This document shows, piece by piece, positions 33,529-59,412 of a DNA stretch of 64,000 nucleotides; position 1 is the first letter of the stretch, and every line of letters begins with the position of its first letter. Position numbers and translations under genes: made by a program. Below the pieces are notes generated by a model that saw nothing but the letters and a program-made list of their open reading frames with translations, had not been told where the DNA came from and made no database searches. The stretch spans positions 1 through 64,000 of the forward strand of contig SAQL01000018.1 of NCBI GenBank assembly GCA_004020645.1, written 5' to 3'. The stretch is from Mesorhizobium sp. (GTDB lineage Bacteria > Pseudomonadota > Alphaproteobacteria > Rhizobiales > Rhizobiaceae).

Positions 33529-34799
33529 GATGAAAGTCTCTCGATGCTCAATTTGTGCATTACCAGCGTGCCGACATATCGAAAGCGCCAGCTCTCGGCA
33601 ATGGCGGCAGTTTCCAGCTTCAATAATTGCATGGGGCACCCAGCCGATCCAACCGAAAAATCCTGACTGGGCGCCTGGCGATTGTATGTACCCTCCGGAA
33701 TATTGAACCGCGCTATTTCGCCGCCCGACCCCACGCATCTGATCGACCAGAACAACTCCTTTGGAAGCTTCAGGTTTCTTGCAGAGGCAATCAGAGAAAT
33801 CTTGTAGGAACCGGGGGGCAGCTCAATATACTGTTGAAGGGCTGTCCCCTTGACCGGCGTATTCAGGAAGCGGACCGTCGCTCCGCCCTCGCCTTCGACC
33901 GCATCCTGAGATGTTACAAAGGTAATTTCCAAACCTGACTGACCGCCGACTTGCCAGTCGAAAGGCTTGCCGCTGGGCACTGGTTCAAAGGTACTATTGA
34001 AAATATACCCGCCCAAGTTCCGTTCTTCATCAGACAGGCTGAAAAGAAATAACCGGTATGCTGGTTCATATTGCTTCTGATTGATAAAACCATTGATCAC
34101 AAGGGACAATTCGTTCGATTTTGGTGGTGCGCCTGACCCAGTCAAATCGAGCAACAGCCGATTTGCAGCATCGATCCCGTCGGAGGTTCTGCTAAGGGCG
34201 GCGAAGAGATTGGCCCGCCAAGGCGCCGCGGCCCTGATGGCTGCCAGCACAGCCTGGTATCCCTCGGGGTTGAAGAGGATTGTCGGCAGCCCCTCGGCGA
34301 TTTCAGGAAATCGATCCGGCCAGCGACGCAGCAAAATATCGATCTCGCCAACAGCCTTTGACAGATCGCCTGTTTCGATCGAGCGGCCAATCGACCTCTG
34401 AAGTGCGTGGATTTCGGTCTTGGATAATTTTCGAGCTTGATCGAACAACTCATAGGCTTGGTCTTTTTCACCCTGTCGGTACTTGATCTCGCCGATCAGG
34501 CTGTAAAGACGTGCGTCGGCAAGGTCAAAGAGAAGCGCCCCTTCGGCCTTGGCCAGCAATGCATCGAAATCGGGAGAGTTGCTCGTATCGTTCAGGTCGC
34601 CGGTAATCTCGCCTATCAAGGCATTGACGTTCAACGGATCCAGCGCGAGGGAAACGGCCGGCGTTTCGGTCTCAAGAAACCGACTTAGCCCGATCGACGA
34701 AGCCGCCAACACTAGAACGGATGCGACGAACCAAACGCCTGAACGCCGGAGATTTCGCATAAGCGGGCTGGTCTGCTCCGTCATCGACTTTGCCCTCAA
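33525..34799 (-). CDS. Polysaccharide-locus protein with membrane anchor and TPR-like repeats, function unknown
   Basis: One N-terminal membrane helix (residues ~22-38, VWFVASVLVLAASSIGL) is followed by helical repeats that look TPR-like (ARLYSLIGEIKYRQGEKDQA, DLSKAVGEIDILLRRW). The C-terminal half is beta-rich (residues ~250-420) and resembles a carbohydrate-binding-type jelly roll, with GYIFNSTFEPVPSGKPFDWQV. It is thus probably anchored with its bulk in the periplasm. ATG choices at 34799, 34784 and 34760 all overlap the end of the tyrosine kinase gene by 89-128 bases. Placed between the kinase and the Wzy-like gene, a role in polymerisation or export is likely but unproven. Confidence 0.7.
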   Translation of the reverse strand: MRAKSMTEQTSPLMRNLRRSGVWFVASVLVLAASSIGLSRFLETETPAVSLALDPLNVNALIGEITGDLNDTSNSPDFDALLAKAEGALLFDLADARLYSLIGEIKYRQGEKDQAYELFDQARKLSKTEIHALQRSIGRSIETGDLSKAVGEIDILLRRWPDRFPEIAEGLPTILFNPEGYQAVLAAIRAAAPWRANLFAALSRTSDGIDAANRLLLDLTGSGAPPKSNELSLVINGFINQKQYEPAYRLFLFSLSDEERNLGGYIFNSTFEPVPSGKPFDWQVGGQSGLEITFVTSQDAVEGEGGATVRFLNTPVKGTALQQYIELPPGSYKISLIASARNLKLPKELFWSIRCVGSGGEIARFNIPEGTYNRQAPSQDFSVGSAGCPMQLLKLETAAIAESWRFRYVGTLVMHKLSIERLSS

Positions 34800-37050
34800 G
34801 TTTCGGGGTGCTCGTGCCGTAGTCGTAATACTGGTAATTCATATACTTGTAGGCGTAGTTGTAATCGAACTTGTTCACCGCAAACTTCGACATCGCGGCT
34901 CCCACCACGTTCGCGCCGGCAGCTCGCAGACGCTTCAACGCTGTCTTCGCTGACTTGCGTGTCACCTGATTGGTAGAGATGACCATCAATGTTCCCTCGG
35001 CAAGCCGGCTGAGAATGGGGGCATCTGAAAGGCCGACGATCGGCGGGGCATCGATTATGACTAGATCGAAGCGCTTGCCGAGATTCGTGATGATGAGCGC
35101 CATCTTCGGCGACGAGAGCAGGTCAGCAGGGTTGGGCGGGATCGTTCCAGAGGTCAGGACGGTCACATTAGGATATTTCGTCGCCCTGAAAATGCTTGCC
35201 AAATCCTCCTTGCGGACGGTGTTCGTCAGCAGATTGCTCAGTCCGATTGTGTTGTCGAGGCCAAACAGCCGATGAAGGTTGGGCTTTCGAAGATCGCCGT
35301 CGACAATGAGAACCCTTGCACCGAGTGCGGCAAAATCCTGCCCGAGTTTGAACGAGGTGGTCGACTTGCCTTCCGAGGGTTCCGAACTCGTGACCAGCAG
35401 CGACCGCGGCGCGCCTTCGGCGCCGGAGAACTGCAATGACGTTCGAAGCGAACGGTAGGCTTCGGACAGTCCTGATTTCTGGTCGGTGATGCTGGCTATG
35501 AGTTCCCGGTCATCGACTAGCGGCAAGATGCCGAGCATCGCCAATCCCAATTCCTTTTCGACCTGCTCAGGATTGGTGAAGGTGTTGTTCAACAACTCGA
35601 TGATATAGATAATTGACCCGCTCAAGGCCATGAAAAGAAACAGAGCGATTGCAAGATTGATGATCAAGCGCGGAGAATAAGGGGCATTGGGCGGCGTCGC
35701 GAAATCGACGATCGCGGCACTTTGCGTCTTGAGCTCGGAGCTGACGCCAACCTCGTTCAGCTTGGCAATAAGATTGTCATACTGGGAACGGTTCGAATCG
35801 ACTTCTCGTTTCAAGATCGTATATTTGATGTTCTTATCGTTGAAGATAACCTGCTGCGTCTCCATCTCGGCAAGCTTTGACTTGAGGTCGGCCTCCTTGT
35901 TCTGAGCCTCCTGGTATTTCTGCCGCAGCGAGTCGGTTATAGTCAAAACGCCATTGTTATAAAGTCGTTGCAGCTCCTTGATCTGCGCCTGAAGCTGCTG
36001 CATCTCTGGAAAGCCAGGCTTCAATATGCCCAGCTTCTGCTGATACTGGCTGGTCAAATCCGACAGCTTCTCGGTGATCTTCTGCAGACCTTCGCTCTCC
36101 AGGACTGGGCCGAGGCTCGACCCGCGACCTTTGTCTATCTGGTCCACCATCCGTCCAGCATCAAGGCGTTCCTGGATTGCAGTCGCGAGCGCGGTGTTCA
36201 GAGTCTCGATATTCGACCCTATCAGCGATTTCTCGTCGCCGGTTATCGTAATGCCAACATCCTTTGCATAAGCGACCAGATCCTCTTCGGATTTCTGAAG
36301 CTTCTGCTTTACCTGCAGAACCTGTTCCTGGATGAACTGCCGTGCCAGGTCTGAGGTTTCGCTGGTCTGATCGAGGCGTTGATCGATAAAGCTTTGCGCG
36401 ACCTGATTGGCTATATCGCTTGCATATTTCGGATTCTGATCGGCAAACGTAATCGACAGCAGGCTTGTGTTAGAGACCAGATTGACCGTGAGGTCATTTA
36501 GAACGCGACCAATCGCAATCGCCTCACGTTGCTCCGGGGTTTTCTCTTCAATGGAGGGCGATTTGGAAATTCCGAACGCACGATAGAAAATATTGCTAAG
36601 CGAGAAATTCGGCGTCGGAAACAGGAAATCCGGCTTTTCGCTAAGTCCTAGCTGAAACACCACGCGCTGGGCCAAAGCCCGGCTTTTCAGCTTCTCGCGC
36701 GCGGTCAGAAAGGCTCGCACGTCGCTGCTTTCAGAGACCACCTCAATATCCTGGAAGACCTTGGCCGAAGGAACCAGCACTTCCAATTGCGTTGTTGCCC
36801 GATATTTTGGCGTCTGCATCATCGTAATGACGATGCCGGCGACAAGCCCGGCTGCCGCCATCATGACGATCAGCCACCGATACTGGACAACGTAAAACAG
36901 CAGCCTGAGTGGGTTGAAGCCCTCGTCCTGCTCCGCGTAATCGCGACCGTACGCACTATAGTTTTGCGCACCGTCATAATACAGGTCGGCAGACAAGGCC
37001 TGGCCATGCCCTGGGCCTGCAATTTGATGCTGTCTGTTACGATCGAGCAT
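34672..37050 (-). CDS. Polysaccharide co-polymerase / BY-family tyrosine autokinase (Wzc/ExoP-like)
   Basis: Controls chain length and export. A Wzz domain has membrane helices near residues 60-85 and 480-505 and coiled-coil periplasmic stretches between them. A cytoplasmic BY-kinase domain carries Walker A in SSEPSEGKSTTS (near 557-567), Walker A' in VLIVDGDLRKP and Walker B in LVIIDAPP. A C-terminal tyrosine cluster (YNYAYKYMNYQYYDY, near 730-745) is the autophosphorylation site. The ATG of MLDRNRQ was preferred to an upstream TTG. Unusually, about 40 residues follow the tyrosine cluster, encoded by DNA that also encodes the start of the next gene. Partners: the Wza-like lipoprotein and PHP phosphatase upstream. 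Confidence 0.93.
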   Translation of the reverse strand: MLDRNRQHQIAGPGHGQALSADLYYDGAQNYSAYGRDYAEQDEGFNPLRLLFYVVQYRWLIVMMAAAGLVAGIVITMMQTPKYRATTQLEVLVPSAKVFQDIEVVSESSDVRAFLTAREKLKSRALAQRVVFQLGLSEKPDFLFPTPNFSLSNIFYRAFGISKSPSIEEKTPEQREAIAIGRVLNDLTVNLVSNTSLLSITFADQNPKYASDIANQVAQSFIDQRLDQTSETSDLARQFIQEQVLQVKQKLQKSEEDLVAYAKDVGITITGDEKSLIGSNIETLNTALATAIQERLDAGRMVDQIDKGRGSSLGPVLESEGLQKITEKLSDLTSQYQQKLGILKPGFPEMQQLQAQIKELQRLYNNGVLTITDSLRQKYQEAQNKEADLKSKLAEMETQQVIFNDKNIKYTILKREVDSNRSQYDNLIAKLNEVGVSSELKTQSAAIVDFATPPNAPYSPRLIINLAIALFLFMALSGSIIYIIELLNNTFTNPEQVEKELGLAMLGILPLVDDRELIASITDQKSGLSEAYRSLRTSLQFSGAEGAPRSLLVTSSEPSEGKSTTSFKLGQDFAALGARVLIVDGDLRKPNLHRLFGLDNTIGLSNLLTNTVRKEDLASIFRATKYPNVTVLTSGTIPPNPADLLSSPKMALIITNLGKRFDLVIIDAPPIVGLSDAPILSRLAEGTLMVISTNQVTRKSAKTALKRLRAAGANVVGAAMSKFAVNKFDYNYAYKYMNYQYYDYGTSTPKLEGKVDDGADQPAYAKSPAFRRLVRRIRSSVGGFVDRAKSVS

Positions 37051-37103
37051 GATGCGTGACAACCTTGGGTTTGTCTCTGGGCTTAATTTTAACCGGCGGT
37101 GCT

Positions 37104-37892
37104 TTACAATCCCGGGACCACCGCAAGTCTCGCTGCGCTCGATGCAACTCCGAGAGCGTCCTTGAGATTGTTCATCGCAATTTTCGATTTCGAAGCGAAG
37201 ACGACAATCTTGTCGCCACCATAGATACGTGGATTGCGGCTCTTGCCGGCGCGAATTTCCTCCACATTGTAATTTGCGACCAATGTGTTTGGGCCGATAT
37301 TGCGGTAAACAAAGACCTTTTTTGCATCGCCAACGGCATTGAACCCTCCAGCAAGGGCGATCGCATCGATGAGAGAAGAATTGCTCGACACCGGAAAAAT
37401 ACCGGCCCTGGCGACTTCGCCGTCGACGGTAATGCGCTGTCCGATCGATTCTTTGACGTAGACCGACACGTCGGGCGCCTGCAGATAGTTGGCGCCGTAG
37501 GCCGTTTCGATTTCCTGCTCCAACTGCCGGACGGTTTTCCCTGCCGCGGTGACGGTTCCGATAAGTGGAAGCGAAATTTGCCCGCCGGCATCGACTTGAA
37601 CGGTTCTGTTCAGATTGTCGACCTGGAACACATTCACCTCGAGCACATCATTCGGCGACAAAGGCTGCTCGTTGCCGTTCTGGCTGTTTTGCGGCGCAGG
37701 CAGGTCCTTTACGACCTGCAGCGCACCGCCGCCCGAGAGCGGCGCCGACGATGACGTCAGTTGCAGCGCATCGACCGAAGTCGGCGAAGACGATGCCGTC
37801 GACGAGGTGCTCGTGCAGGCCGACATCGAGAGCGAAGCGAGCAAGACACATATCGTGCCCAAGCAACTTTTTGCGAAATGAAAAACGCCCAT
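37104..37892 (-). CDS. Polysaccharide export lipoprotein (Wza/ExoF-like)
   Basis: Outer-membrane export channel component. A lipoprotein signal peptide ends in LSMSAC with lipidated Cys26. A low-complexity Ser/Thr tract follows, then the Poly_export domain (LSPNDVLEVNVFQVDNLNRTVQVDAGGQISLPLIGTV, residues ~78-115) and one SLBB-type domain (ITVDGEVARAGIFPV). At 262 residues it is shorter than E. coli Wza, as in many alphaproteobacteria. Its ATG overlaps the stop of the phosphatase gene by one base (TAATG). Confidence 0.9.
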   Translation of the reverse strand: MGVFHFAKSCLGTICVLLASLSMSACTSTSSTASSSPTSVDALQLTSSSAPLSGGGALQVVKDLPAPQNSQNGNEQPLSPNDVLEVNVFQVDNLNRTVQVDAGGQISLPLIGTVTAAGKTVRQLEQEIETAYGANYLQAPDVSVYVKESIGQRITVDGEVARAGIFPVSSNSSLIDAIALAGGFNAVGDAKKVFVYRNIGPNTLVANYNVEEIRAGKSRNPRIYGGDKIVVFASKSKIAMNNLKDALGVASSAARLAVVPGL

Positions 37893-38719
37893 TACGCTGT
37901 CCCACCCTTCAACAAGCGACCCAATCCTGCAAAGCGACCGGCGTTGCCGGGGCTTGGCTTTTTCGAGCCTGCCTTTCCGACCGGATCGAGAGGCCGGTTC
38001 GCCAATATTTCGCCCGGACGTTTCAACACCATGTTGCGGGCCTCATCTTCTCCACATCGCTTCGCCGCCGCGGCGACGGCCCGCGTAAGCCCAGGACGCC
38101 GGCGGGTGGCGCCATGGGTGTCCGATGCGATAATATCTACCCTGCCCTCGTCAATCAGCTTTTCCGAATAGTAAAGTGCCGTGCGGCCAAAAGCACCAAC
38201 AATCGAGTCTGCGGTAAGCTGAACAAGGCAGCCGATTGCATTCAACCTCTCGACAACGTCGTAATTTGCCTTGATCCAGGTCAGCCGCTCAGGATGGGTA
38301 AGAATCGGAATGAACCCGGCGTTTATGAGGCGCAGAGCAAGATCTTCCAGCCTTGGCGGCAGAACGTGATGCGGCGGTTCGAATAGAAAATAACGCGACC
38401 TGTTCAAGGTCGGCACGCTACCCAGCGCCAATTGCTCCGGAAGATCCGGCGCTATATGCACGTCGGCGCCAACGTAAAGAGCAAGCGGTATTGCCGCATT
38501 ATGTAGCGCCTGCTCCAACTCTTGAACCGCACTGGCAATATTTACCGATCCGTTTTCGTACATGCCTGGCACGATATGCGGCGTACACGCCATATGCGTC
38601 GTTCCATCTGCCACCGCCAGCCGCGCCATTTCCAGCGATTCAGCAAGACTGGGCGAACCATCGTCAAGCCCGGGCAAGATGTGGGAATGCAGGTCGATCA
38701 TTGGCGTTTGTGGCCACAT
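37892..38719 (-). CDS. PHP-domain tyrosine-protein phosphatase (CpsB/CapC/YwqE type)
   Basis: Manganese-dependent phosphatase likely to dephosphorylate the BY-kinase encoded two genes downstream. PHP metal motifs are visible: IDLHSHILPGLDDGS, ACTPH, LTHPER and IASDTHG. The start used is the ATG of MWPQTPMIDLHSH; the internal ATG of MIDLHSH is equally possible and the long upstream extension is not. The C-terminal tail is Gly/Lys-rich. This type is typical of Firmicutes; most proteobacterial Wzc systems use a low-molecular-weight phosphatase instead. Confidence 0.88.
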   Translation of the reverse strand: MWPQTPMIDLHSHILPGLDDGSPSLAESLEMARLAVADGTTHMACTPHIVPGMYENGSVNIASAVQELEQALHNAAIPLALYVGADVHIAPDLPEQLALGSVPTLNRSRYFLFEPPHHVLPPRLEDLALRLINAGFIPILTHPERLTWIKANYDVVERLNAIGCLVQLTADSIVGAFGRTALYYSEKLIDEGRVDIIASDTHGATRRRPGLTRAVAAAAKRCGEDEARNMVLKRPGEILANRPLDPVGKAGSKKPSPGNAGRFAGLGRLLKGGTA

Positions 38720-39011
38720 TGAAGCAACGTAGCAACTTCTCCCGGATAACAGGTAAATGCGCCATCCGCACGGTAGCGAATGACGCATCCATCAAACAGT
38801 GCGGTAGAACTCAAGCTATTCGCTGACAGATGGGATGAAATCACCCAAGACCAAGCTCATTCAGCTTCAACTAAAGTGAGCGGTATGGTTAATGAATTTC
38901 ATCAGCATCTCCGGCTCCACCCGGCGCACTAACGCTGATGCACAGAGGCATCGGCATACAATACAACAGGGCAGTCACATGCCTCTGCTATATTACCCAC
39001 TGGGCGACGGC
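38720..39011. other. Intergenic region with inverted repeat upstream of the export genes
   Basis: Nearly 300 bases between the FecR-like gene and the phosphatase gene, both on the - strand. CAGAGGCAT (38943-38951) and ATGCCTCTG (38979-38987) form a 9-bp perfect inverted repeat. It could be an RNA hairpin ending the upstream transcript or an operator for an internal promoter of the phosphatase-wza-kinase block. No T-run follows. No coding frame is evident. Confidence 0.4.
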
Positions 39012-39521
39012 TTAAGGGCTGACGCTGTCGCCGTCATCCTGCGTTGCAGCAAGGACACCAGCGCCAAGACCCATGCCCCCAAAAATAAAGAGCGGGGTGT
39101 TGGACCGGGCGCCGCCCGGGGCAATCTGCCCCGTATGCTCAGGGCTCACACCAACGGCCGCCGTCTGCTCGGAGCCCACGACCTTCAGGCAGATATTGTT
39201 CTCGACACGGGAAATGTCGAGGCTTGAATTCGCCGGCACATCCAGGTTGCAGCCACCGACATTGACGGAAGCCGATCCCCTGGCTCCGACCACTATGCGG
39301 CTGCCAAAATCCAGAGCACTTCCCGCTTTGGCCGGGCCATAGCCGGCGGCTTGCGAAACCATGACGTCGCCATTGGCGCGCCCGATGGAACCAATCGAAT
39401 TCGCTGCTGCCTGATAGGCTGTCGTACATGTGCATGGCGCGTCCTGGGCGAAAGACGAAACCGGGCCGAAACCGATCGAGGCGATAAATCCGGCCAACGC
39501 AACTTTTACAGTAAGGTTCAT
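39012..39521 (-). CDS. Secreted FecR-like protein of unknown function
   Basis: Start set at MNLTVKVALAGF, preceded by AAAAAGGA nine bases upstream; the frame is open further upstream but with poor codon character. A Sec signal peptide ends FAQDAPC. The region IGSIGRANGDVMVSQAAGYGP..AKAGSALDFGSRIVVGARGSASVNVGGC has the spacing of a FecR domain (residues ~35-105), ending in the typical beta strand plus small-residue turn. A glycine-rich hydrophobic segment near the C-terminus (TPLFIFGGMGLGAGVLAA) may be a membrane helix. Four cysteines could form disulfides. Function is not known; context suggests surface polysaccharide handling. Confidence 0.68.
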   Translation of the reverse strand: MNLTVKVALAGFIASIGFGPVSSFAQDAPCTCTTAYQAAANSIGSIGRANGDVMVSQAAGYGPAKAGSALDFGSRIVVGARGSASVNVGGCNLDVPANSSLDISRVENNICLKVVGSEQTAAVGVSPEHTGQIAPGGARSNTPLFIFGGMGLGAGVLAATQDDGDSVSP

Positions 39522-39893
39522 TCGTTTCGATCCTTTTTGTCCCGCCGCACCTCGGCCCCGCCCAAGCACCAAGGTATAGACGAAGCGCGTAACAGCTTTC
39601 TGCTTTGATTCCAACCTGTTTCGCATTTGCGAGATGACGTTTCGGCTTCCGCTGTGTTTCATTGGACACACTCAGTTGCCAACTTTAAATCTACCATTTT
39701 TGCTGTCGGCCCCTGTGGAAATTGTCGGAAAAGGCAAGTTTATTTCGTGGCCTTTGATGCCGCCATCGCGCCGGGCTTCGTACAGGGATTATGGTCGACT
39801 CTGTTTGACGTTGTCGCACATCCTGCCTTTCGTTTTATGACTGTCGCGATTCGTGGGAATGACGGACGCGAGGGCAGTTAGCGAAGCCGTGAG
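39522..39893. other. Intergenic region upstream of the FecR-like gene
   Basis: About 370 bases with locally lower GC (for example 39680-39720). It likely holds a promoter for the FecR-like gene. The frame of that gene stays open to 39671, but the upstream codons are not convincing. I see no strong hairpin and no other gene. Confidence 0.4.
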
Positions 39894-40367
39894 CTACGAA
39901 CCCGATAAGCAAGATTTGTAGATCGAACCCGCCTGCGCGGGCTGTCCGCACAAGATGCCATTCTCGGCAAGTTTGGCGGCTAAATCCGCGCCATCGGACG
40001 TGAGGCACTGCACAACGATGGCGTCACCAAACTTTGAGGCGACATTGCCGTCGCAAGGCGTCCCGTTGCCGACCGGCTTGCAGGTCAGGGCGAGCCCTTG
40101 GTAGTCCCGGCGTGCCGCCTCGGTTACCATGGCACGCATGGATTGCGGCTTGGTAAACGCCACGCCGCACAACACAATCTTGCGGCCGGCGACGCGAAGA
40201 TCATCGACTGCCTGAATGGAGAGCTTGCCGTCAAACGGCTCAAGTGCCGCTTGCGGTTTTGGCTCCCGTGCCCCGAGGTCCGTCCCCATCTTGACGACGA
40301 CGATAAGGAAGCCGACTCCAAACACCACGCCTAGAAGCGCAAGCAAGCCCAGCTTTTTAATCGACAA
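39894..40367 (-). CDS. Membrane-anchored thermonuclease-fold protein, ExoI-like
   Basis: The N-terminal membrane helix (residues ~7-26) anchors a domain resembling the rhizobial succinoglycan-locus protein ExoI, a staphylococcal-nuclease homolog: IQAVDDLRVAGRKIVLCGVAF, LTCKPVGNGTPCDG, DAIVVQCLTSDGADLAAKLAENGILC. Six cysteines suggest disulfides outside the cytoplasm. The Arg and acidic residues that make staphylococcal nuclease active (R35, D40, E43 positions) are not evident, so nuclease activity is doubtful. A broken partial copy of this gene lies at 62507-62622. Confidence 0.72.
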   Translation of the reverse strand: MSIKKLGLLALLGVVFGVGFLIVVVKMGTDLGAREPKPQAALEPFDGKLSIQAVDDLRVAGRKIVLCGVAFTKPQSMRAMVTEAARRDYQGLALTCKPVGNGTPCDGNVASKFGDAIVVQCLTSDGADLAAKLAENGILCGQPAQAGSIYKSCLSGS

Positions 40368-40430: not shown

Positions 40431-42794
40431 CTATGCCAGCCCCAATCGCCGCTCCAGCACTTCCAATTCGACCAGATCGATCACGTCGGCAGCATGTGTC
40501 ACGGTCATCACTGCGTCGGCAGTAAGGTAAAACTGATCGTGCTCAGTGCCTGCCTCCCCGCCCTCCGCTGCAATTTCTGTGAAAAAATGCTGCGCTGTAT
40601 TGTTGATCACCGCCGTGATCGTCCCGGTATTGCCAAGGGAAACGGCAGATCCCGCCGTTAGAGAGCTGGGGCTGCCGTGGAAGACCATAAGCGGGTAACG
40701 AGCCATGCTAAGTCCGCGATTGCGCGAAACCGCTCTTATAGTTATTTCGAGCTCACGATGCCCAAGCTCTTGTATGCCGTAATTGTGCTTTAGCTTGAAC
40801 GGTATTGTGAGCGAAATGGCGCCAACTTGCACAGAGGAATTGCGCAGCACCGCCTTGTAGTGCAAGGTCGGCGACCAGCCGAGATAAGGGACCTGTTTGA
40901 CATAGGCGGCCTTCATGATGACACCCGAGGCCACTTTGCCGCCGGAGACGTATCTGGGGTACGCGCTCGTGTCTGTGTCCCACAGCTCGAACGTGTCGTC
41001 AGAGGCGTTCGCAACCGTAAATGTGCGTTTGTTTAGCTGGGTCATCCCAACGACGCCATCGATGCGAACCACATCGCCGTCCGAACGGCCATGCGCTGGA
41101 GCGACAACCACGCCAGGCTTCGAATTCGTAACAGCCGTTATGCTGGCAACGGTGCCTCGAGCGCCCCATTCGTCAACGACAGGCAGCACGATCGGCTCTG
41201 CTCGCGGCGCCGTGCGTTGAACGGTTCTGCGGATATTCACGATGTTGGCCGTCGTCCTGTCGTCTACTTCAACGAACCCCACATCGTTGGTGATATCGAT
41301 ATCGATGGAATTGACGGCACACCGGCGAATGTAGACTCCATTAACTTCTCGTGCGCCAAGCCCTCCTCGCAAACCGACTATGTCCTCATAGACACGATCG
41401 TATTTTTGCCCGAGATACCGATAAGATGGAAGGCTGATAACGCCACCTGCACCGCTGACAGGCGTTAGGGAAGTATCCACTGATCTGACGCGCTTTGCAT
41501 GCCCGCCGTAACACCTGAGACCGACTAGCGATGCCTGCTGATCAGGAACGATGACGTCCACCACGTCCTCAAACTTCGTTTCAAAGGAAGGATGGCACTC
41601 GACAACAGCAGTATTATTCAAGCCCGTTATGCGTTTTATAGTTGTATTATAAGCCCAATTATTTGCATCTATCGGATGCTGCAGTCCTTCCGCATATATG
41701 TCGCTAAACTCCGAGTTTCTTGATGCGTTCGATACGTTGATTGGATAGCGGCTATTCAACAGGCGCAACCGCTCGCCGCGAACCCCTTCGCACATCCTGA
41801 GAACGAGGCAATCTGTTGCGGCCCGGACTTCAGTTCCCTCCAGCGTCGCATCACAGATGTACGGCGCCTTGAGGCTCGTGAAATCGACGCGTTTTCCAAG
41901 CGCACATTTCCAACTTATTCCGCGCAGGCGAAGCATGCCCGATCGATATATCGAAACGACGGTTTCGAGAGCGGAGAAGTCGAAGTTTGCGGGCTCGACA
42001 AGCGAGACTGCGTTTGCGTTTATTGACGCAATCACGCCAAGCATTTGCTTGTCGTAACCGTACGAAGTCTCAACCTGCGTGTCGCTATTGAGAAAAAGAA
42101 TATCCCCGACATGCGCCGAACTGGCATCATTGACGTTAATGACCATGTCGCCCCACGCGATCGGAGCGGTTAGTGCCAGGTTGGTAGCAACAATTTCCCC
42201 TGAGAAATCAATGCACGCCGGATCGCCCACGTTGATGAGCAGGCGGGTCTTTCCTCGGGACCATATGTCGAGAGTGGTATCTGCTGGAATTATGATTGTA
42301 GACAGCGGCGTGTCTATCGCAATATCACCTGCCGGGAGTTCGAGCGGCTGGTTTAGAAACTGCGCGGTCGCTATGGCGTTGGCAAGACCTGTCGCAGCAT
42401 CGGTTACACCATCAGCCATGACGCCGAACAGCGCCGCGTTGAACGGCGGAACCAGCTCCCACCAGGCACCATCGCGCGTTTGAAATTTGCCGTTGTGTGC
42501 TGGCTGTGAAGCAACCCTCCTGTAAAGGGCATCGGCACCATCCCCAGCCGCGCTATATCCACTTACGCGTAGCGCGCTTGTTCCTGCCGGAACCGAAAGG
42601 GAGGGCATGTCCACCACTGCTGCGTAGATAGGCACATTGCCTCCGCTAACCGCATTGGAGGCATATCGCGCCGCCAAACCGGCAGGTGCATCCGCAGTTG
42701 CATTGGCCGCCACTGCGGCCGGAACGCCCGCAGCAAAGGCCGCAATAGGGGCAGCTTTCAAAAATGATCGGCGATTCGTCGTTGGGGTCTTCAA
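40431..42794 (-). CDS. Tat-exported right-handed beta-helix protein, tail-spike/pectate-lyase-like
   Basis: A twin-arginine signal (NRRSFLKAAPIAAFAAG, residues 7-23) marks export of a folded protein. Residues ~110-140 show the pectate-lyase superfamily entry seen in phage tail spikes (FGVMADGVTDAATGLANAIATAQ). Then comes a long region of short beta-strand repeats (~150-530) consistent with a parallel beta-helix. A module near 590-625 (VVRIDGVVGMTQLNKRTFTVANASDDTFEL) resembles the E1-FCCH-like segment common in phage tail proteins. A C-terminal beta-rich domain ends the 787-residue chain. Its place in the locus suggests a lyase, hydrolase or epimerase acting on the polysaccharide; no active site could be assigned. 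Confidence 0.8.
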   Translation of the reverse strand: MKTPTTNRRSFLKAAPIAAFAAGVPAAVAANATADAPAGLAARYASNAVSGGNVPIYAAVVDMPSLSVPAGTSALRVSGYSAAGDGADALYRRVASQPAHNGKFQTRDGAWWELVPPFNAALFGVMADGVTDAATGLANAIATAQFLNQPLELPAGDIAIDTPLSTIIIPADTTLDIWSRGKTRLLINVGDPACIDFSGEIVATNLALTAPIAWGDMVINVNDASSAHVGDILFLNSDTQVETSYGYDKQMLGVIASINANAVSLVEPANFDFSALETVVSIYRSGMLRLRGISWKCALGKRVDFTSLKAPYICDATLEGTEVRAATDCLVLRMCEGVRGERLRLLNSRYPINVSNASRNSEFSDIYAEGLQHPIDANNWAYNTTIKRITGLNNTAVVECHPSFETKFEDVVDVIVPDQQASLVGLRCYGGHAKRVRSVDTSLTPVSGAGGVISLPSYRYLGQKYDRVYEDIVGLRGGLGAREVNGVYIRRCAVNSIDIDITNDVGFVEVDDRTTANIVNIRRTVQRTAPRAEPIVLPVVDEWGARGTVASITAVTNSKPGVVVAPAHGRSDGDVVRIDGVVGMTQLNKRTFTVANASDDTFELWDTDTSAYPRYVSGGKVASGVIMKAAYVKQVPYLGWSPTLHYKAVLRNSSVQVGAISLTIPFKLKHNYGIQELGHRELEITIRAVSRNRGLSMARYPLMVFHGSPSSLTAGSAVSLGNTGTITAVINNTAQHFFTEIAAEGGEAGTEHDQFYLTADAVMTVTHAADVIDLVELEVLERRLGLA

Positions 42795-42904: not shown

Positions 42905-43522
42905 TTACGGTTTTTTGGCGATCACAATCATGCTCTTCGCAAGCACGGGGATACGGCCTACCCGCTCGAAACGTGAAACTTCCAGCCCCGCCTCCTTGAG
43001 CAATATTTCAAGGGTCCGGAAAGACCAGAACTTGATATGACCACCGTCCCACAACGCCCAGAAATGAGCATCCATTCGACCTGTCACCGCCAGTGCCAAA
43101 TTCTTGATATAGCCATGATAAGGCGTTGAAATGACGGCTGTTCCACCCGAATTAAGAAGCTCGTACACGTTCTTGGCAAATGCCCTTGGATCGTAGAGAT
43201 GCTCCACAACCTCAAGACTGAGAACCATGTCAAAAGTGCCATAGCGAGCACGGAGATCATCGTAAGCCGAACCGCTTTCAATCCTGATATCGGGATAGGC
43301 TTTGTTGGCCATGGCTACGGCAGATGTTGACGGATCTATTCCAGTAACCACACACCTGTCACTCAGATGCTTTGCAACGCTGCCGTTGCCGCACCCCAAA
43401 TCAAAGACTGTGGCCGGCGAAAACTCCTTCACGATTTTATCGACGGCAGGCAATAAAATGTTATGTGAATCGTTGGTCTCATGAGAATCATAGAGATATT
43501 CCAGATTCTTTTCCTGACTCAT
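42905..43522 (-). CDS. Class I SAM-dependent methyltransferase (UbiG-like)
   Basis: 205 residues. Motif I VFDLGCGNGSVAKHL (near residues 39-53), motif II acidic end in VTGIDPSTSA, and post-I segment MVLSLEVVEHLYDP are intact. The long insertion HFWALWDGGHIKFWSF is typical of methyltransferases in glycan clusters that act on sugars or lipid-linked sugars. It is 109 bases upstream of the beta-helix gene. The acceptor is unknown. Confidence 0.88.
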   Translation of the reverse strand: MSQEKNLEYLYDSHETNDSHNILLPAVDKIVKEFSPATVFDLGCGNGSVAKHLSDRCVVTGIDPSTSAVAMANKAYPDIRIESGSAYDDLRARYGTFDMVLSLEVVEHLYDPRAFAKNVYELLNSGGTAVISTPYHGYIKNLALAVTGRMDAHFWALWDGGHIKFWSFRTLEILLKEAGLEVSRFERVGRIPVLAKSMIVIAKKP

Positions 43523-44564: not shown

Positions 44565-45113
44565 CTATCGCGAGCCTATCTGATGCGCCGGATTGCCGAC
44601 CACGACAGCTCCATCGGAGACGTCCTTGGTGACCACCGAACGTGCCCCTATGACTGCCCGGCGTCCAACACGCACACCGGGGCCGATGAAAGCCTCAGCC
44701 GCCACCCACGCACCCGTCTCGATCCGGATCGCCCCGACAAAGAGCGGGAAAGCAGGATCGCGATAATCGTGCGTGGCGGCGCAGAGGTGGGCGCCCTGAC
44801 TTATTGTAACGTGGTCCTCGACCGTGATCGAACCGACCGAGTAGCAAATTACTCCGGGCCCGAGGCTGCTCACGGCGCCAAGGCGCAAATTCCAGGGAGC
44901 CCAGATACGCGCCGATGGATAGGGATGAGCGCCCTTGCTTACCGTGGCGCCAAACAGTCGCAACAGGAAACACCGCCAACCATGAGCTGGGACAGGCGAC
45001 CAACTATACAGTGTGGCTTCCACAATTCGCCATACTAATCGCCTTGATTTGTCCTTCAGGCTTGGCGCATGAGACGGCTCAAGCCTAGAACGTCGTGGAA
45101 TCAAATCAGCCAT
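44565..45113 (-). CDS. WcaF-like hexapeptide acetyltransferase
   Basis: Left-handed beta-helix O-acetyltransferase of the CysE/LacA/NodL group. The N-terminal helical part LKDKSRRLVWRIVEATLYSWSPVP is typical of WcaF. Hexapeptide repeats run from about residue 60 to 175, including the catalytic His in AATHDYRDPAFPL. It probably acetylates a sugar of the repeat unit. It starts three bases after the GT4 gene stop. Confidence 0.88.
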   Translation of the reverse strand: MADLIPRRSRLEPSHAPSLKDKSRRLVWRIVEATLYSWSPVPAHGWRCFLLRLFGATVSKGAHPYPSARIWAPWNLRLGAVSSLGPGVICYSVGSITVEDHVTISQGAHLCAATHDYRDPAFPLFVGAIRIETGAWVAAEAFIGPGVRVGRRAVIGARSVVTKDVSDGAVVVGNPAHQIGSR

Positions 45114-52030: not shown

Positions 52031-53380
52031 CTATTCACCTGTCCTGAAGATTCTGGCGCGAAGAATGAGTGCCGGAATGAGGGTAAATGCGGAGAAGCTA
52101 ATCAAAGTCGCCCAGACCGAACCGGCAATGCCTACCTGATCAATGAAAAAGAGTTTGAGCGTAATCGCCACCGCCGCTGTGAAAAATGCGGCGACCAATT
52201 GGAAGCCAATCACACTCATGCCGTTCAAGAACATGGCCAAGGCAACACCCACCGCCTCCACCACTTTCCACAAACCGAGGCCAAGCAGAAGAAGAAATGG
52301 CGGCGATACGGCCCGGCCCACCCACAATTCGAGAATCCAGGGCGCGGTAATCACCAAAAAGGTGGAACCGAGCGCCGCAGTTCCGGCTGACAACAACAGC
52401 GAGCGTTTCAACGTCCGAGCCACCCAGATCCGATCCCCTCGTGCGATCGCCTCGCCATAGGCCGGCCAAAGCGGCGCAACCACCATCGCCACGACCAAAC
52501 TGATCAAGGCGAACAGCCTTTCAGGCACCGCATAGTCGGCTACCGAAGAAGCGCCCAGCTTGTGCGCAATGATAAAATTATCCGACATGTAGGTCGCGGC
52601 GGCGACAAGCTGCAGGACAAGGAACAGAAAGCCTGTACCGGTCAGGGTTCGAATTGCAGCCCTCGAAACGCTGTAACGATCGGGCGCTATATCCCGTTCT
52701 AGGGAGCCGAAAAACACTATGTTGTTTGCAACGCCCGCCAGCAACGGTGCCCCGACATAGGCCAAGACCAGAAAAGGGAGCGGCGCCTTCAAATGAATAG
52801 CCAGGAGCACGCCGAAGAGCCCCAGGACACTGGCAGCAGCCTGCCAGAGGCTCATCATGTACCCCTTCTGTAATCCCATTTGAGTGCGTTGGACCACTCC
52901 AACCGGAATCGCCAGGGCAAAGCAGCCAATCAGCACGGCGACTGCCGGTCCGGCCTCTGCGCGGGCGAGCTCGGATTGAACGTTGAAAATCCGGTACCAC
53001 GTCACAAAGGGATAACAGATCGCCAGGATTGTCAGCACCGCAACTGCAATCAGGGAGAGCACAAGATACGCACTCGAAACAAGCGTCCGTATGCCAGCGC
53101 GGTCGTCCCGTCCGTGAGCGGAGGCCACCGAGGACAATAGGCCATTGCCGATACCAAGATCCGCGAATGAGAGAAAAGCAACGAGCGAACTCATCACCAT
53201 CCACATGCCATAGCGCTCTGCGCCGAGGTAATGAAGCGTCAGCGGCACCGATACCAATGCCGTCGATACGGAAACAAGCTTGGCAAAGGCCGAAGCGAGC
53301 GCGCTTTTCGCGATGCGCCGCTCGCGCTGCGAGGTATGCCCATCGCGCGCAGTTGCATCAGATTCCATAATTATAGACAA
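52031..53380 (-). CDS. wzx: Lipid-linked oligosaccharide flippase (Wzx, MOP superfamily)
   Basis: Membrane protein of 449 residues with about twelve hydrophobic segments. The N-terminal SALASAFAKLVSVSTALVSVPLTLHYLGAERYG is typical of polysaccharide-type MOP flippases, with FADLGIGNGLLSSV next. It would move the undecaprenyl-linked repeat unit to the periplasmic face for polymerisation. It is the only flippase in the locus. ATG at 53380 used; a second ATG four codons in is possible. Confidence 0.9.
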   Translation of the reverse strand: MSIIMESDATARDGHTSQRERRIAKSALASAFAKLVSVSTALVSVPLTLHYLGAERYGMWMVMSSLVAFLSFADLGIGNGLLSSVASAHGRDDRAGIRTLVSSAYLVLSLIAVAVLTILAICYPFVTWYRIFNVQSELARAEAGPAVAVLIGCFALAIPVGVVQRTQMGLQKGYMMSLWQAAASVLGLFGVLLAIHLKAPLPFLVLAYVGAPLLAGVANNIVFFGSLERDIAPDRYSVSRAAIRTLTGTGFLFLVLQLVAAATYMSDNFIIAHKLGASSVADYAVPERLFALISLVVAMVVAPLWPAYGEAIARGDRIWVARTLKRSLLLSAGTAALGSTFLVITAPWILELWVGRAVSPPFLLLLGLGLWKVVEAVGVALAMFLNGMSVIGFQLVAAFFTAAVAITLKLFFIDQVGIAGSVWATLISFSAFTLIPALILRARIFRTGE

Positions 53381-54432: not shown

Positions 54433-55947
54433 CTACCAATCGCTCTTTGGAATCGGGTGAGCTTGACCGGCCGGTCGAAACATCGCGTTGCGATCTGGCA
54501 ACCTCGGACCGATACCACGCGCCATGCCAACAATTCGAGCGCCGGCAAGGCATGCTGCACAGACAAACATTGTAACATCGAACAAATAGACGCGCAGGAT
54601 CATCATCAATATGAGAGGAACCATTGCAAGCTGGGCCGCGCGCACGAAGATATCGCGTCTACTATCCAGCCCGGGAGCTATTCGAAGCGGCACTGGCGTC
54701 AGTTTGGCCAGGTAGATCGCCATCAATACCATCATCACAATGCCGCCATTAACAAGAAAATATGTCACACCGGACTTCGGAGCGATGACTCGCCCTTCCA
54801 TATAATGCCGAAGCGCATCAGGAATATATCTATCCACCGTCAAATGACCTAAACCAAACCCACGACCGAGTATCATTGACGAAGGATCGGCAAGAAAGCT
54901 CTTTATGATCACCCAATCCATATCTTCGACTTCTATTCTTCCAAGTGTACGTTGATAAAAAAGATCTCGGACACTATTAGTCTCTTCGACCGATATACTT
55001 GGCATGTCCGTTACCATGAAAGGAGAATTTGCCGGAGAACTCGTAACGTTTGACAAATAAATCACGAGCATGCAGGAAAATGCACCAAGATATACAGCCA
55101 GTACTGCCCCTGAACTCAGAGGGCGCCCAAGGGTCTTTAAAACCAGATACACTCCAAGCCCAATTGGCAGTGCGATAAGCGCCGAGGTCGACTGCGTCAG
55201 GTAGACAATGCAGAGGGCGAGCGCGAAAACGCACAATCGCACTCTCTGCGTTGCAAAAATCTTCTGGCCGAATGCCACGAGAATTATTCCCGCGGACGCG
55301 GCGAAGAGGGCGAGCACCTTAGGCTCGCCTGCAAGCGAACTCGGGCGCAGATCGAGTTCACCGCGGAAGCTCAACATACCTGACCTCTGCGCCTCGTCCC
55401 CGACACTCAACAAACCGATTGGCAGGATATCCGTCCCAAGGACCCGGAAGACTGCATATTGCACGATACCGATCACACACAGGATCGCTACCGAGATCAC
55501 GTAGGTACGCAGCAGGGCCGTAATGTCGTGCTGTACACCACGCGCGAACAGCAGCGCGAACGGCAGAAGCGACAGCAGAAAAGTAATTGTCGAGATTGCT
55601 ACGCGAAGCCCACCGTTCCGCAGGTCACCACCGGCAAACTCGATTCCCAAGTCCGCTATTGCCAGCGTGAAGAAGCCAGAGACAATTCCGATGAAGGTAA
55701 ATAGAGCGATTATCTTAGTATGCGGGATTTGATTTAAGCCAAATCGCCCGTGCAACGAATACTTCAGGGCAAGAAATAGAAATAACACCTTGGAAATCGG
55801 CAAATTGACGCCGACGTCCGGTGTTAAAGCACCCCATGGCAAAAAGAACACTGGGACAGCAAGATCACGACCCAAAGGCTTATAGAGGCAAAGGATAGCA
55901 CCAAGAGCAAGAACGATGAACGGAACGAAGTGTAATCCGCTCATCAT
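54433..55947 (-). CDS. O-antigen/polysaccharide polymerase (Wzy-like)
   Basis: 504 residues with about eleven hydrophobic segments and a large periplasmic loop (residues ~310-390) with the arginine-rich GRGFGLGHL and RHYMEG sequences, as in Wzy polymerases of Wzx/Wzy systems. The family is very divergent, so the call rests on topology and context near wzx. GC is low for the window. A second such protein is encoded at 32209-33528. Confidence 0.78.
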   Translation of the reverse strand: MMSGLHFVPFIVLALGAILCLYKPLGRDLAVPVFFLPWGALTPDVGVNLPISKVLFLFLALKYSLHGRFGLNQIPHTKIIALFTFIGIVSGFFTLAIADLGIEFAGGDLRNGGLRVAISTITFLLSLLPFALLFARGVQHDITALLRTYVISVAILCVIGIVQYAVFRVLGTDILPIGLLSVGDEAQRSGMLSFRGELDLRPSSLAGEPKVLALFAASAGIILVAFGQKIFATQRVRLCVFALALCIVYLTQSTSALIALPIGLGVYLVLKTLGRPLSSGAVLAVYLGAFSCMLVIYLSNVTSSPANSPFMVTDMPSISVEETNSVRDLFYQRTLGRIEVEDMDWVIIKSFLADPSSMILGRGFGLGHLTVDRYIPDALRHYMEGRVIAPKSGVTYFLVNGGIVMMVLMAIYLAKLTPVPLRIAPGLDSRRDIFVRAAQLAMVPLILMMILRVYLFDVTMFVCAACLAGARIVGMARGIGPRLPDRNAMFRPAGQAHPIPKSDW

Positions 55948-56875: not shown

Positions 56876-57970
56876 TTACTGTGCCGCAACGCGAATGCGG
56901 TCCTCATCCAGGCGCCGGTGTTCGGATTCCCGTCTTACCGTTTCGAGGTCGGACTGAACCATTTCCTGGACCATCGCATCGAGCGAGGTTGTTGCCTTCC
57001 ACCCGAGAACGCGCTCCGCTTTCGAAGGATCGCCGATCAGCAGCTCAACTTCGGTCGGCCTGAAATAGCGCGGATCCACCTCGATCAGGACAGCGCCTGA
57101 TTTTGCGTCGACGCCTTTTTCGTCAATACCGGAACCAACCCACTCGACCTCGATCCCGACCTCGCTGAATGCAAGCTCGACAAAGCGGCGGACCGAATTC
57201 TTTACGCCGGTTGCAAGGACGTAGTCGTCCGGCATTTCATGCTGAAGGATTCTCCACATGCCTTCGACATAGTCGCGGGCATGGCCCCAATCCCGTTCAG
57301 CCGACAGATTGCCGAGGTAGAGCTTGTCCTGGAGGCCGAGCCTGATTGCAGCAGCCGCGCGCGTGATCTTGCGGGTAACGAACGTCTCGCCGCGCATCGG
57401 GCTTTCGTGATTGAACAGGATGCCGTTGGAAGCATGGATATCGTAAGCTTCGCGGTAATTCACGGTGATCCAGTAGGCATAAATCTTTGCCGCCGCATAT
57501 GGCGACCGAGGATAGAAAGGCGTCGTCTCCCGTTGCGGGATCTCCTGCACCTTGCCGTAGAGCTCGGAAGTCGATGCCTGATAAAAACGCGTCTTTTCTG
57601 TCAGGCCAAGCAGCCGGATGGCTTCGAGGAGACGCAATGTGCCGATCGCGTCGGCATTCGCGGTATATTCCGCGGTCTCGAAGCTCACCTGGACATGCGA
57701 TTGTGCGGCGAGATTGTAGATCTCGTCCGGCTGCACTTCCTGGACGATACGGATGAGGTTGGTGGCGTCGGTCATGTCGCCATAGTGCAGCGACAGCCTT
57801 ACGTCCTTCTCATGGGGATCCTGGTAGAGATTATCGATGCGACCGGTGTTGAACGACGAGGAACGCCGCTTGATGCCATGGACTTCATAGCCCTTTGCCA
57901 GAAGAAGTTCCGCCAGATAGGCACCATCCTGGCCGGTGATGCCGGTAATGAGTGCGGTCTTCCTAGTCAT
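56876..57970 (-). CDS. gmd: GDP-mannose 4,6-dehydratase
   Basis: Converts GDP-D-mannose to GDP-4-keto-6-deoxy-D-mannose, precursor of fucose, rhamnose or perosamine. NADP-binding [19 protein letters not shown] (residues ~6-24), [16 protein letters not shown], and the catalytic Tyr-Lys in [13 protein letters not shown] are intact. The [19 protein letters not shown] stretch is diagnostic. 364 residues, full length. GDP-mannose could come from the ManC-AGE gene at the right edge. No obvious fucose synthase is encoded in the window. Confidence 0.96.
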
Positions 57971-58128: not shown

Positions 58129-59412
58129 TCAACGCGCGCCAAAACCTGTCAGCATGGTTCGGATGGTACGAAACACAATCAGCACATCGAGCCACGGCGA
58201 GAAATTCTTGATATAGTAGAAGTCGTAGTGAAGTTTTTCCAGAACATCGTCCACGGCCGCAACGTGGCCCTGGTTGACTTGAGCCCACCCCGTAATGCCA
58301 GGCCGAACGATGTGCCGGTATCGATAGAATGGCAGCTCGGCCTCGTACCACTTAGAGAGTACGAGTGCTTCCGGGCGCGGTCCGATCCAGCTCATCTCGC
58401 CGCGCAGGATGTTGAAGGCTTGCGGCAATTCATCGATCCTGGATTTTCTCAAGAACTGCCCAAGGCGCGTAATGCGCGCATCGCCGGCCTTTGTGATGGC
58501 CTCTTCCTTTTCATCGCCAACCGCGGCGCCGAGTTTCATCGTCCGAAATTTATAAACTTCGTAGATCTTTCCTCTGTACCCCATTCTTTTTTGCTTGAAT
58601 AAGGCTGGACCAGCCGAGTCAAATCTTATCGCTATCGCTACGAACAAGAGCAATGGTGAAAAACCCAACAGAATAACTAGTGCCGCAATCCAGTCAGCCG
58701 CCTGTTTGATCTTTAAATAAGCCTGGTTTGGATTCAGTGACCCCAAGGTATTTTCGGAAAGGTGCTCTATTTCTACTCGACCTGTAAGCGACTCGCTGAT
58801 CTGTTTGACATGATAGACGGGCGTTCCCGAGAGCGCGCGATCGGCAATATACCGCTCCCATTGATCCGAAAGATCGGAACGAAGATCGGCAACGACGCCA
58901 TTTACCCGGTCAACGATGATATCGGGCGAGGCAAGCCAATGCCAATTCACGCCGCTAATCTCTTCGAGACGATCGACAGCCCCTCCCGGAATCACGGCGA
59001 GGCTGTAGGGATCCAGGCGCCTGCTCAAGATGCTCAGGCCGAAATACCAGAGAATTGACAGCGTCAAGCTGCCGGCCGCCTGGAATGCGCTGTAGTCGAT
59101 ACGAAACAAGAAAATTGCCAAGTACACGAGTCCGTAGCACATTGCAAATGTTGGCATAATATAACCGGCAGCCGCGACGCCTGGCAAATTGCCTATTCGA
59201 CGAAAGAAAAAAAATCCCAAAGTATGTGCGACGAGGCCGGCGAAAATTGTAATCTGAATGTTTGAATAGGAAAATATATTTGGATCAATCACCATCCTAA
59301 CCAGCACAGGAGTCAGAATTGCAAAGGCCAATCCGCCAAGAAGTTGAAACCTGACGCGGTGTAACAGGTGCCGTTGATTTCGCGGCTTTATGATGGGAGC
59401 ATTCAATTCCAA
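58129..59412 (-). CDS. Initiating sugar-1-phosphate polyprenyl transferase (WcaJ/ExoY-type)
   Basis: Starts repeat-unit assembly by placing a hexose phosphate on undecaprenyl phosphate. Four or five N-terminal helices and a CoA-binding-like cytosolic region (residues ~120-215) precede the catalytic domain (~225-427) with IRFDSAGPALFKQKRMGYRGKIYEVYKFRTM, the SRIDELPQAFNILRGEMSWIGPRPE core and VRPGITGWAQVNQG. The first usable start is TTG; the frame is open 29 codons further upstream but without ATG, GTG or TTG. Follows the NusG paralog across a structured leader. Confidence 0.9.
   Translation of the reverse strand: MELNAPIIKPRNQRHLLHRVRFQLLGGLAFAILTPVLVRMVIDPNIFSYSNIQITIFAGLVAHTLGFFFFRRIGNLPGVAAAGYIMPTFAMCYGLVYLAIFLFRIDYSAFQAAGSLTLSILWYFGLSILSRRLDPYSLAVIPGGAVDRLEEISGVNWHWLASPDIIVDRVNGVVADLRSDLSDQWERYIADRALSGTPVYHVKQISESLTGRVEIEHLSENTLGSLNPNQAYLKIKQAADWIAALVILLGFSPLLLFVAIAIRFDSAGPALFKQKRMGYRGKIYEVYKFRTMKLGAAVGDEKEEAITKAGDARITRLGQFLRKSRIDELPQAFNILRGEMSWIGPRPEALVLSKWYEAELPFYRYRHIVRPGITGWAQVNQGHVAAVDDVLEKLHYDFYYIKNFSPWLDVLIVFRTIRTMLTGFGAR

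Follow-up and report, generated by a model that had tools for sequence, protein, structure and literature searches.

The window analysed here is a stretch of 64,000 nucleotides of Mesorhizobium DNA, in which an EPS stretch (window 32000-60000) has a GC content of 52-57%, against 58-65% across the remaining window, as expected for an exchanged island. Within the EPS stretch lies the gene for a tailspike-like protein, called the window gene and window protein below. Downstream in gene direction come two small genes (hyp157 and hyp219) and those for CpsB/CapC, Wza and Wzc; upstream are genes for methyltransferases, glycosyltransferases, a WcaF-like acetyltransferase, Wzx, a candidate Wzy, Gmd, a WcaJ-type priming transferase and an RfaH/NusG-like regulator.

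34672..37062 (-), Wzc-type tyrosine autokinase / chain-length determinant (TIGR01007, 1.1e-49, over cut-off)
37104..37892 (-), Wza-type polysaccharide export protein (PF02563, 1.7e-21)
37892..38788 (-), CpsB/CapC-type capsule synthesis protein (PF19567, 2.6e-53)
39012..39671 (-), hyp219, small neighbour (no Pfam/NCBIfam match at the limits used)
39894..40367 (-), hyp157, small neighbour between window gene and CpsB (no Pfam/NCBIfam match at the limits used)
40431..42794 (-), window gene, for the Tat-signalled tailspike-like protein (ORF; stop codon within coordinates)
42905..43522 (-), methyltransferase, directly upstream of the window gene (PF13489, 2.4e-22)
44565..45113 (-), WcaF-family acetyltransferase (PRK10502, 3.5e-50, under its cut-off)
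52031..53380 (-), Wzx-type flippase (PF01943, 3.8e-12, over cut-off)
54433..55947 (-), candidate Wzy polymerase (PF04932, 0.0066, under cut-off)
56876..57970 (-), GDP-mannose 4,6-dehydratase, Gmd (TIGR01472, 7e-180)
58129..59412 (-), priming polyprenyl sugar-phosphate transferase of the WcaJ/EPS_sugtrans type (TIGR03025, 2.4e-84, just under cut-off)

No phage genes were recognised among the flanking genes examined. A preliminary description, drawn up from the DNA before any searches, had placed the gene in a polysaccharide locus and had remarked that it is not surrounded by phage genes; both statements hold, with glycosyltransferase/Wzx genes on one side and CpsB-Wza-Wzc on the other.

Domain layout and predicted fold of the window protein

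The window ORF (42794..40431, minus strand) opens with TTG and codes for 787 residues, and the sole full-length match to its product in the window's own 7.66 Mb genome is the window gene itself. The protein can be divided into the following parts.

42699..42794 (-), Tat-type signal peptide, residues about 1-32 (TNRRSFLK, hydrophobic stretch, AVA/ANA end; cleavage point estimated)
42441..42641 (-), neck-like N module, residues 52-118 (common to phage spikes; pLDDT about 86-95; aligns to the WceF neck region)
42300..42440 (-), predicted cap helix and first beta-helix strands, residues 119-165 (degenerate pectate-lyase entry motif; AF2 helix; phrog_14558)
42009..42179 (-), K1-lyase Rider-like region, weak, residues 206-262 (PF24149, E 8.5e-4, under curated cut-off)
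41205..42092 (-), predicted right-handed beta-helix body, residues about 235-530 (fold searches; low-confidence model)
40932..41096 (-), E1_FCCH-like module, residues 567-621 (PF16190, E 6.7e-11, over curated cut-off)
40434..40877 (-), C-terminal domain, residues 640-787 (alignable with an Antarctobacter plasmid protein; pLDDT below 40 in the sole model covering it)

Judged by its sequence, the window protein bears a Tat-type signal. The N-terminus, TNRRSFLKAAPIAAFAAGVPAAVAANA, contains the RR signal MKTPTTNRRSFLKAAPIAAFAAGVPAAVAANA and is a classical signal of this type. The relative in genome G088 begins in matching register (VKPPTTTRRSFLKAVPPAA, GTG start), and TatC is encoded in the window genome (E 8.8e-69), which bears out the RR signal of the preliminary description. 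(G000 denotes the window's own genome, the other G labels related genomes, and L labels loci or contigs.)

The pectate-lyase-like entry motif of that description stands in part: a degenerate form, FGVMADGVTDAATGLANAI, starts at residue 123 and the PHROG tail spike phrog_14558 matches residues 123-274 (E 3e-6), but PF12708, the pectate-lyase-like superfamily, is not among its Pfam matches with an E limit of 0.1. The cap helix of the AF2 model spans model residues 90-103 (target 134-147). The PF24149 score is 20.1 bits, below the curated cut-off of 27. The E1-FCCH-like module of the preliminary description was found by PF16190, above the curated cut-off; phrog_584, a major tail protein, matches the same region (7.2e-11), and the module is also matched in two phage records. 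A ubiquitin-activation reading suggested by the name E1_FCCH was dropped because the module matches phage tail proteins too.

The plasmid pSMS3-2 of Antarctobacter heliothermus encodes a 1113-residue protein (L054:10711-14052), annotated from its E1 FCCH domain, that has its body in common with the window protein (25% over residues 199-622) and an alignable C-terminus. It also matches PF24149 (8.2e-4), likewise below the cut-off. Its gene lies within a glycosyltransferase cluster, and by eye no Tat signal is apparent.

Two AlphaFold models were built from shallow alignments (40 and 28 rows) in which the non-target rows cover the N-terminal part only. Both are confident at residues about 50-165 and poor elsewhere, with the body mostly below pLDDT 70. 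The alignment for model 1 included a row that fits the body badly; leaving this row out for model 2, which covers residues 45-545, raised the mean pLDDT only from 49 to 57. A Foldseek search of the PDB with model 1 gave no rows at E <=1e-3, with 15 of its 16 rows being tailspikes, a phage tail fibre or WceF, the tailspike-like protein of Pantoea stewartii. Five BFVD rows reached E <=1e-3, the best a Caulobacter phage tail spike (5e-7), and rows past the first few were mixed. In VIA-align, model 1 also met repeat folds other than beta-helices, namely the leucine-rich-repeat chain 7fii (Z 6.8) and the CAP domain 1k8f (Z 6.3). Model 2 is preferred because the VIA-align results of model 1 mix tailspikes with unrelated repeats and the lower BFVD rows are mixed.

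With model 2, 3 of 73 Foldseek rows reached E <=1e-3, all of them the K2-2 tailspike (best 1.5e-4); WceF ranked tenth (E 7.4e-3), and tailspikes, a phage tail fibre and WceF made up the top 15 rows. From their titles and the known nature of the proteins, we take the best 50 of the 73 rows to be of the beta-helix type (tailspikes, WceF, polygalacturonases, RbmB, AlgE, PfbA and similar proteins), and in a row titled phage portal complex we take chain B to be the Sf6 spike. VIA-align placed model residues 9-217 (target 53-261, the neck and early helix) on WceF residues 166-433 (Z 9.4, rmsd 3.8, 199 aligned). It also aligned the Sf6 tailspike (Z 10.1, rmsd 6.2, 251 aligned) and the Phi92 colanidase (Z 9.1, rmsd 5.3, 235 aligned), the latter among several helices over target residues about 235-530. 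A phmmer search of PDB sequences with an E limit of 1 gave eight matches, and WceF (6TGF) is not one of them.

The fold matches are only suggestive because confidence in the body model is low, and their support is moderate because best Z values of 7-8 are, according to the tool, common by chance (Z 8 was reached by 29 of 135 chains with model 2) and leucine-rich-repeat chains reach 6.8 and, with model 2, 7.6. The neck is modelled with confidence and can be aligned to WceF; the helix body is a low-confidence prediction. As the preliminary description had proposed, structure prediction and fold searches were thus applied to its beta-helix-like body: they returned mainly tailspikes and WceF and agree on a beta-helix, with model pLDDT mostly below 70. 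Its tail-spike-type architecture is upheld by the fold searches and by the neck-like module common to phages.

The models do not allow catalytic residues to be named. The window protein might be a lectin-like binder or cross-linker of the strain's own EPS, or a modifier of the C5-epimerase or esterase type, and not a cutter: beta-helices include the AlgE epimerases, which are also in the fold lists, and WceF itself clusters with stewartan and cuts slowly (PMC7949094). The nearest fold matches are nonetheless tailspikes and WceF, a hydrolase, and we consider a binder or modifier unlikely.

The same place in related Mesorhizobium loci

Of the 146 genomes of the genus, 43 have a relative of CpsB. 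All 43 loci were read, short of their far ends, as 40 segments upstream of CpsB (15 kb or to the contig end, five of them shorter than 9 kb) and three further loci. A Tat-signalled beta-helix-like protein is encoded beside CpsB in 10 of the 43 EPS loci (G000, G088, G142, G136, G050, G118, G091, G075, G007 and G015). No such gene was seen beside CpsB in the other 33, and the gene is therefore accessory. An eleventh protein, in G034, lies at the opposite locus end beside priming-transferase and RfaH-like genes; that of G052 is on another contig than CpsB, in a Wzx/glycosyltransferase region, and the few scanned neighbours of that of G126 are non-EPS genes. The beta-helix assignment rests on PF12708 over its cut-off for G142 and G118, Beta_helix just under its cut-off for G136 and G050, only the entry motif by eye for G007 and G015, and only the N module for G088 and G034. 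The small neighbour hyp219 occurs in all 40 EPS segments and hyp157 in 35 of them, and both look exported by eye.

A regex Tat detector matched 14 of 291 ORFs in the 40 EPS segments, seven of them Tat-signalled beta-helix-like proteins and seven non-signals by eye. In 40 control segments it matched 6 of 387 ORFs of at least 350 residues, all six being internal or membrane-protein stretches by eye. The controls were other 15-kb segments of the same genomes, three of which (L207, L223 and L230) lie within 5 kb of an EPS stretch; the regex, the by-eye verdicts and the segment selection are choices of this analysis. A tblastn search for decayed copies, with the 13 Tat proteins against the 33 segments, gave one short match, in G016 (88 residues, E 6e-4). 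This stretch (L110:6654-6887) resembles the Tat protein of the G136 type in its N-terminal part (44% over 88 residues) and is perhaps, on its sequence, a decayed copy. A by-eye lead to another in G053 was not confirmed.

All-against-all blastp sorts the 13 Tat proteins into eight body types at E 1e-3. Four are groups, G136 with G050 (73%), G118 with G091 and G075 (95-99%), G007 with G015 (84%) and G052 with G126 (31% end to end), and four are singletons, the window protein among them. The ten CpsB-side proteins comprise six body types without detectable mutual similarity. Neighbouring genes in common were counted among these ten loci (genes of at least 180 residues, at least 50% identity, Tat protein excluded, genome relatedness uncorrected). 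All five same-body pairs have such genes in common (5, 8, 10, 10 and 11), against 0-1 in 34 of the 40 different-body pairs and 7-8 in the other six, which are the pairs of the G118 group with G007 or G015. In most cases, then, a body keeps company with its own set of neighbouring genes, mainly for sugar assembly. The six pairs that differ in body yet have 7-8 neighbours in common are the one clear exception and show that body and polymer genes can part.

These observations bear on whether the window protein acts outward, on a foreign glycan such as the plant cell wall or the polymer of a competitor or other strain, and sits in an EPS locus by chance of acquisition. Mesorhizobium includes root symbionts, and pectinase-type folds are in the match list. 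Against this stand the repeated finding of such proteins next to CpsB (10 of 43 loci) and the neighbouring genes held in common within each body type, and the Tat pathway delivers to the periplasm; outward action seems improbable.

Relatives in phages and other genomes

With the whole protein as query, 12 of the 146 genus genomes and 30 of the 394 in a family sample gave matches, mostly over residues 15-180 only; both counts take in the window's own genome. The N module was found again by blastp in 34 ORFs from these searches, directly preceded by a Tat signal in six, all from Mesorhizobium (G000, G034, G052, G088, G126 and G142); two more regex matches among the 34 are, by eye, not signals. 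With the exception of G052 and G126, these six proteins can be aligned only within their first 210 or so residues, and under other settings the window protein and that of G088 show a weak extension to residue 300 (31% over 308). An N-module profile gave 15 loci in GTDB, of which four have the Tat signal, all in Mesorhizobium and all within the six genomes named above.

In IMG/VR, a relative of the N module is encoded in 40 of 52 pattern matches. None of these 40 loci has a Tat signal ahead of the module by detector and eye together; the lone regex match, L166, is by eye not a signal. Instead, 37 loci have other sequence ahead of the module, estimated at 54-463 residues, and in three (L182, L188 and L193) the module stands at the frame start. 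The best phage match, L154, has 61% identity over 88 residues, and a linker of this spike (ARDIAAGYASDAVSQGNV) is nearly repeated right behind the Tat signal of the G088 protein (ARDEAAGYASDAVSQGNV) and, less exactly, in the window protein. On this sequence evidence the window protein may be read as a spike in which an export signal has taken the place of the original front part. In a tree of the N module with 42 rows, the six Tat rows need five changes (bootstrap 5-6), and 126 of 500 shuffles are equally low; neither a single capture nor several are claimed because the tree cannot resolve them.

Relatives of the body are scarcer. A whole-protein scan of IMG/VR confirmed one stretch, possibly from the window's own genome, and returned no loci, and a GTDB scan confirmed none of 18 stretches. 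An IMG/VR profile of the body and the Antarctobacter protein matched 58 stretches, none of them confirmed, and a degenerate body motif matched two, neither a relative. A class-level search of 385 genomes gave weak partial matches in only two others; in an order-level search of 297 genomes with residues 194-787, ten others matched, nine of them in the FCCH part only.

The genus also has N-module spikes that by eye adjoin phage-like genes, e.g. in L049 and L051. In genome G121, a spike gene (L050:13267-16062) directly adjoins two glycosyltransferase genes; its product combines a phage-type N-terminus with the N module, and the gene is possibly an intermediate, or else a stray from a prophage. 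Spikes of the former kind raise the prospect that the window gene, too, is a stray prophage spike gene without a host role. This we regard as highly improbable: no phage gene was recognised around it, it has a Tat signal where phages have other sequence, and other Tat-signalled beta-helix-like proteins occupy the same place in other species. The takeover of a phage-type fold by the host, as put forward in the preliminary description, is partly supported, by the architecture, the Tat-type signal, the EPS setting and the recurrence in relatives, and would be one possible direction of transfer.

Possible function and comparison with known systems

The window protein is probably a WceF-like, self-acting EPS depolymerase or chain trimmer, that is, a phage-tailspike-type protein that serves its host. 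Cutting is one of three roles that the preliminary description had put forward, beside epimerising and binding of the host's polymer. Its signal suggests that the protein would be exported folded through Tat, as that description had also proposed, and tailspikes and WceF suggest that it would be a trimer. The neck-like module and beta-helix may offer a groove that suits the repeating unit of the EPS made by its own locus. As a slow endo-depolymerase, it could trim growing or finished EPS and thereby set chain length and viscosity, in the manner of WceF with stewartan, and its origin may lie in a phage. The idea of a tailspike-type enzyme acting on the cell's own slime would then hold for Mesorhizobium as well as for enterobacterial plant pathogens, and the window gene may be an instance of genes passing between phages and host surface-polymer loci.

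More tentatively, and with some doubt on our part, the EPS locus of the genus may have a cassette for a self-acting depolymerase. Its different Tat-exported bodies, six of the proteins being built on a Tat-plus-neck chassis, would be swapped largely together with the sugar-assembly genes, so that each polymer has its own trimming enzyme, and phage spikes would have been recruited repeatedly. If so, matched pairs of polymer and enzyme could be obtained from genome reading alone. If each body matches its polymer, such reading would give polymer-specific EPS-cutting enzymes, and the setting of Wzy-type EPS chain length by factors besides Wzc would become testable.

Several known systems resemble the window protein in part. 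RbmB of Vibrio cholerae acts on its own matrix polymer. It is a beta-helix polysaccharide lyase (PDB titles 9OZL and 9OZD), but its only link to the window protein is a fold match with the low-confidence body. The secretome reported for Rhizobium leguminosarum includes a protein with beta-helix repeats, whose export runs through PrsDE and not through Tat (PMC2275737). The phage tailspike depolymerases (K2-2 TSP, CBA120 TSPs, Phi92 colanidase and Sf6 TSP) have the neck-like module by sequence and, as far as the modelled fold indicates, the cap helix and beta-helix; the window protein differs in having a Tat signal and short linker in place of the virion-attachment part, and its gene lies in a bacterial EPS locus, with no virion genes among the flanking genes examined.

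WcaM of E. coli likewise has a Tat signal, a gene in an EPS (colanic acid) cluster and homology to a phage spike. It appears in lists of Tat substrates (PMC7549933, PMC3027627) and matches the Phi92 gp150 colanidase (E 6e-24) and phrog_6117, colanic acid degradation (6.6e-52); the Phi92 enzyme is called a colanidase in two papers (PMC11126041, PMC11640937) and in its PDB title. The wcaM gene of E. coli K-12 (L138:2503-3897) thus encodes a Tat-signalled relative of a phage enzyme that degrades the product of that cluster. WcaM differs in belonging to another body family: at E 1, blastp matched it to none of the 13 Tat proteins from Mesorhizobium, the window protein included. A role of WcaM in colanic acid was not found in the literature searched, and no title or opening abstract there, mostly outside subscription journals, concerned such a Mesorhizobium protein or a link between WcaM and the colanidase.

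By analogy, the best model for the window protein would be WceF. Its description (PMC7949094) presents a Tat-signalled, trimeric, tailspike-like beta-helix encoded within the stewartan cluster, which slowly hydrolyses its own polymer and whose loss lengthens that polymer; its authors speculate that it was acquired during coevolution with phages. Both proteins are bacterial, not viral, and have a Tat signal (by sequence in the window protein), a gene inside an EPS cluster with Wzc, and a tailspike-type neck; the right-handed beta-helix that follows the neck in WceF is predicted, with low confidence, for the window protein. In WceF (PDB 6TGF), a P22-type head domain, about 110 residues long, precedes the neck (PMC7949094); the window protein is without such a head, having only about 20 residues between the estimated cleavage point and the N module, and has an E1_FCCH-like module and another C-terminal domain. 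A tailspike-type protein used by a bacterium on its own polymer is not a new idea in kind, WceF being a proven precedent (PMC7949094); the present analysis adds that in Mesorhizobium such a place recurs in the EPS locus, with bodies that are swapped.
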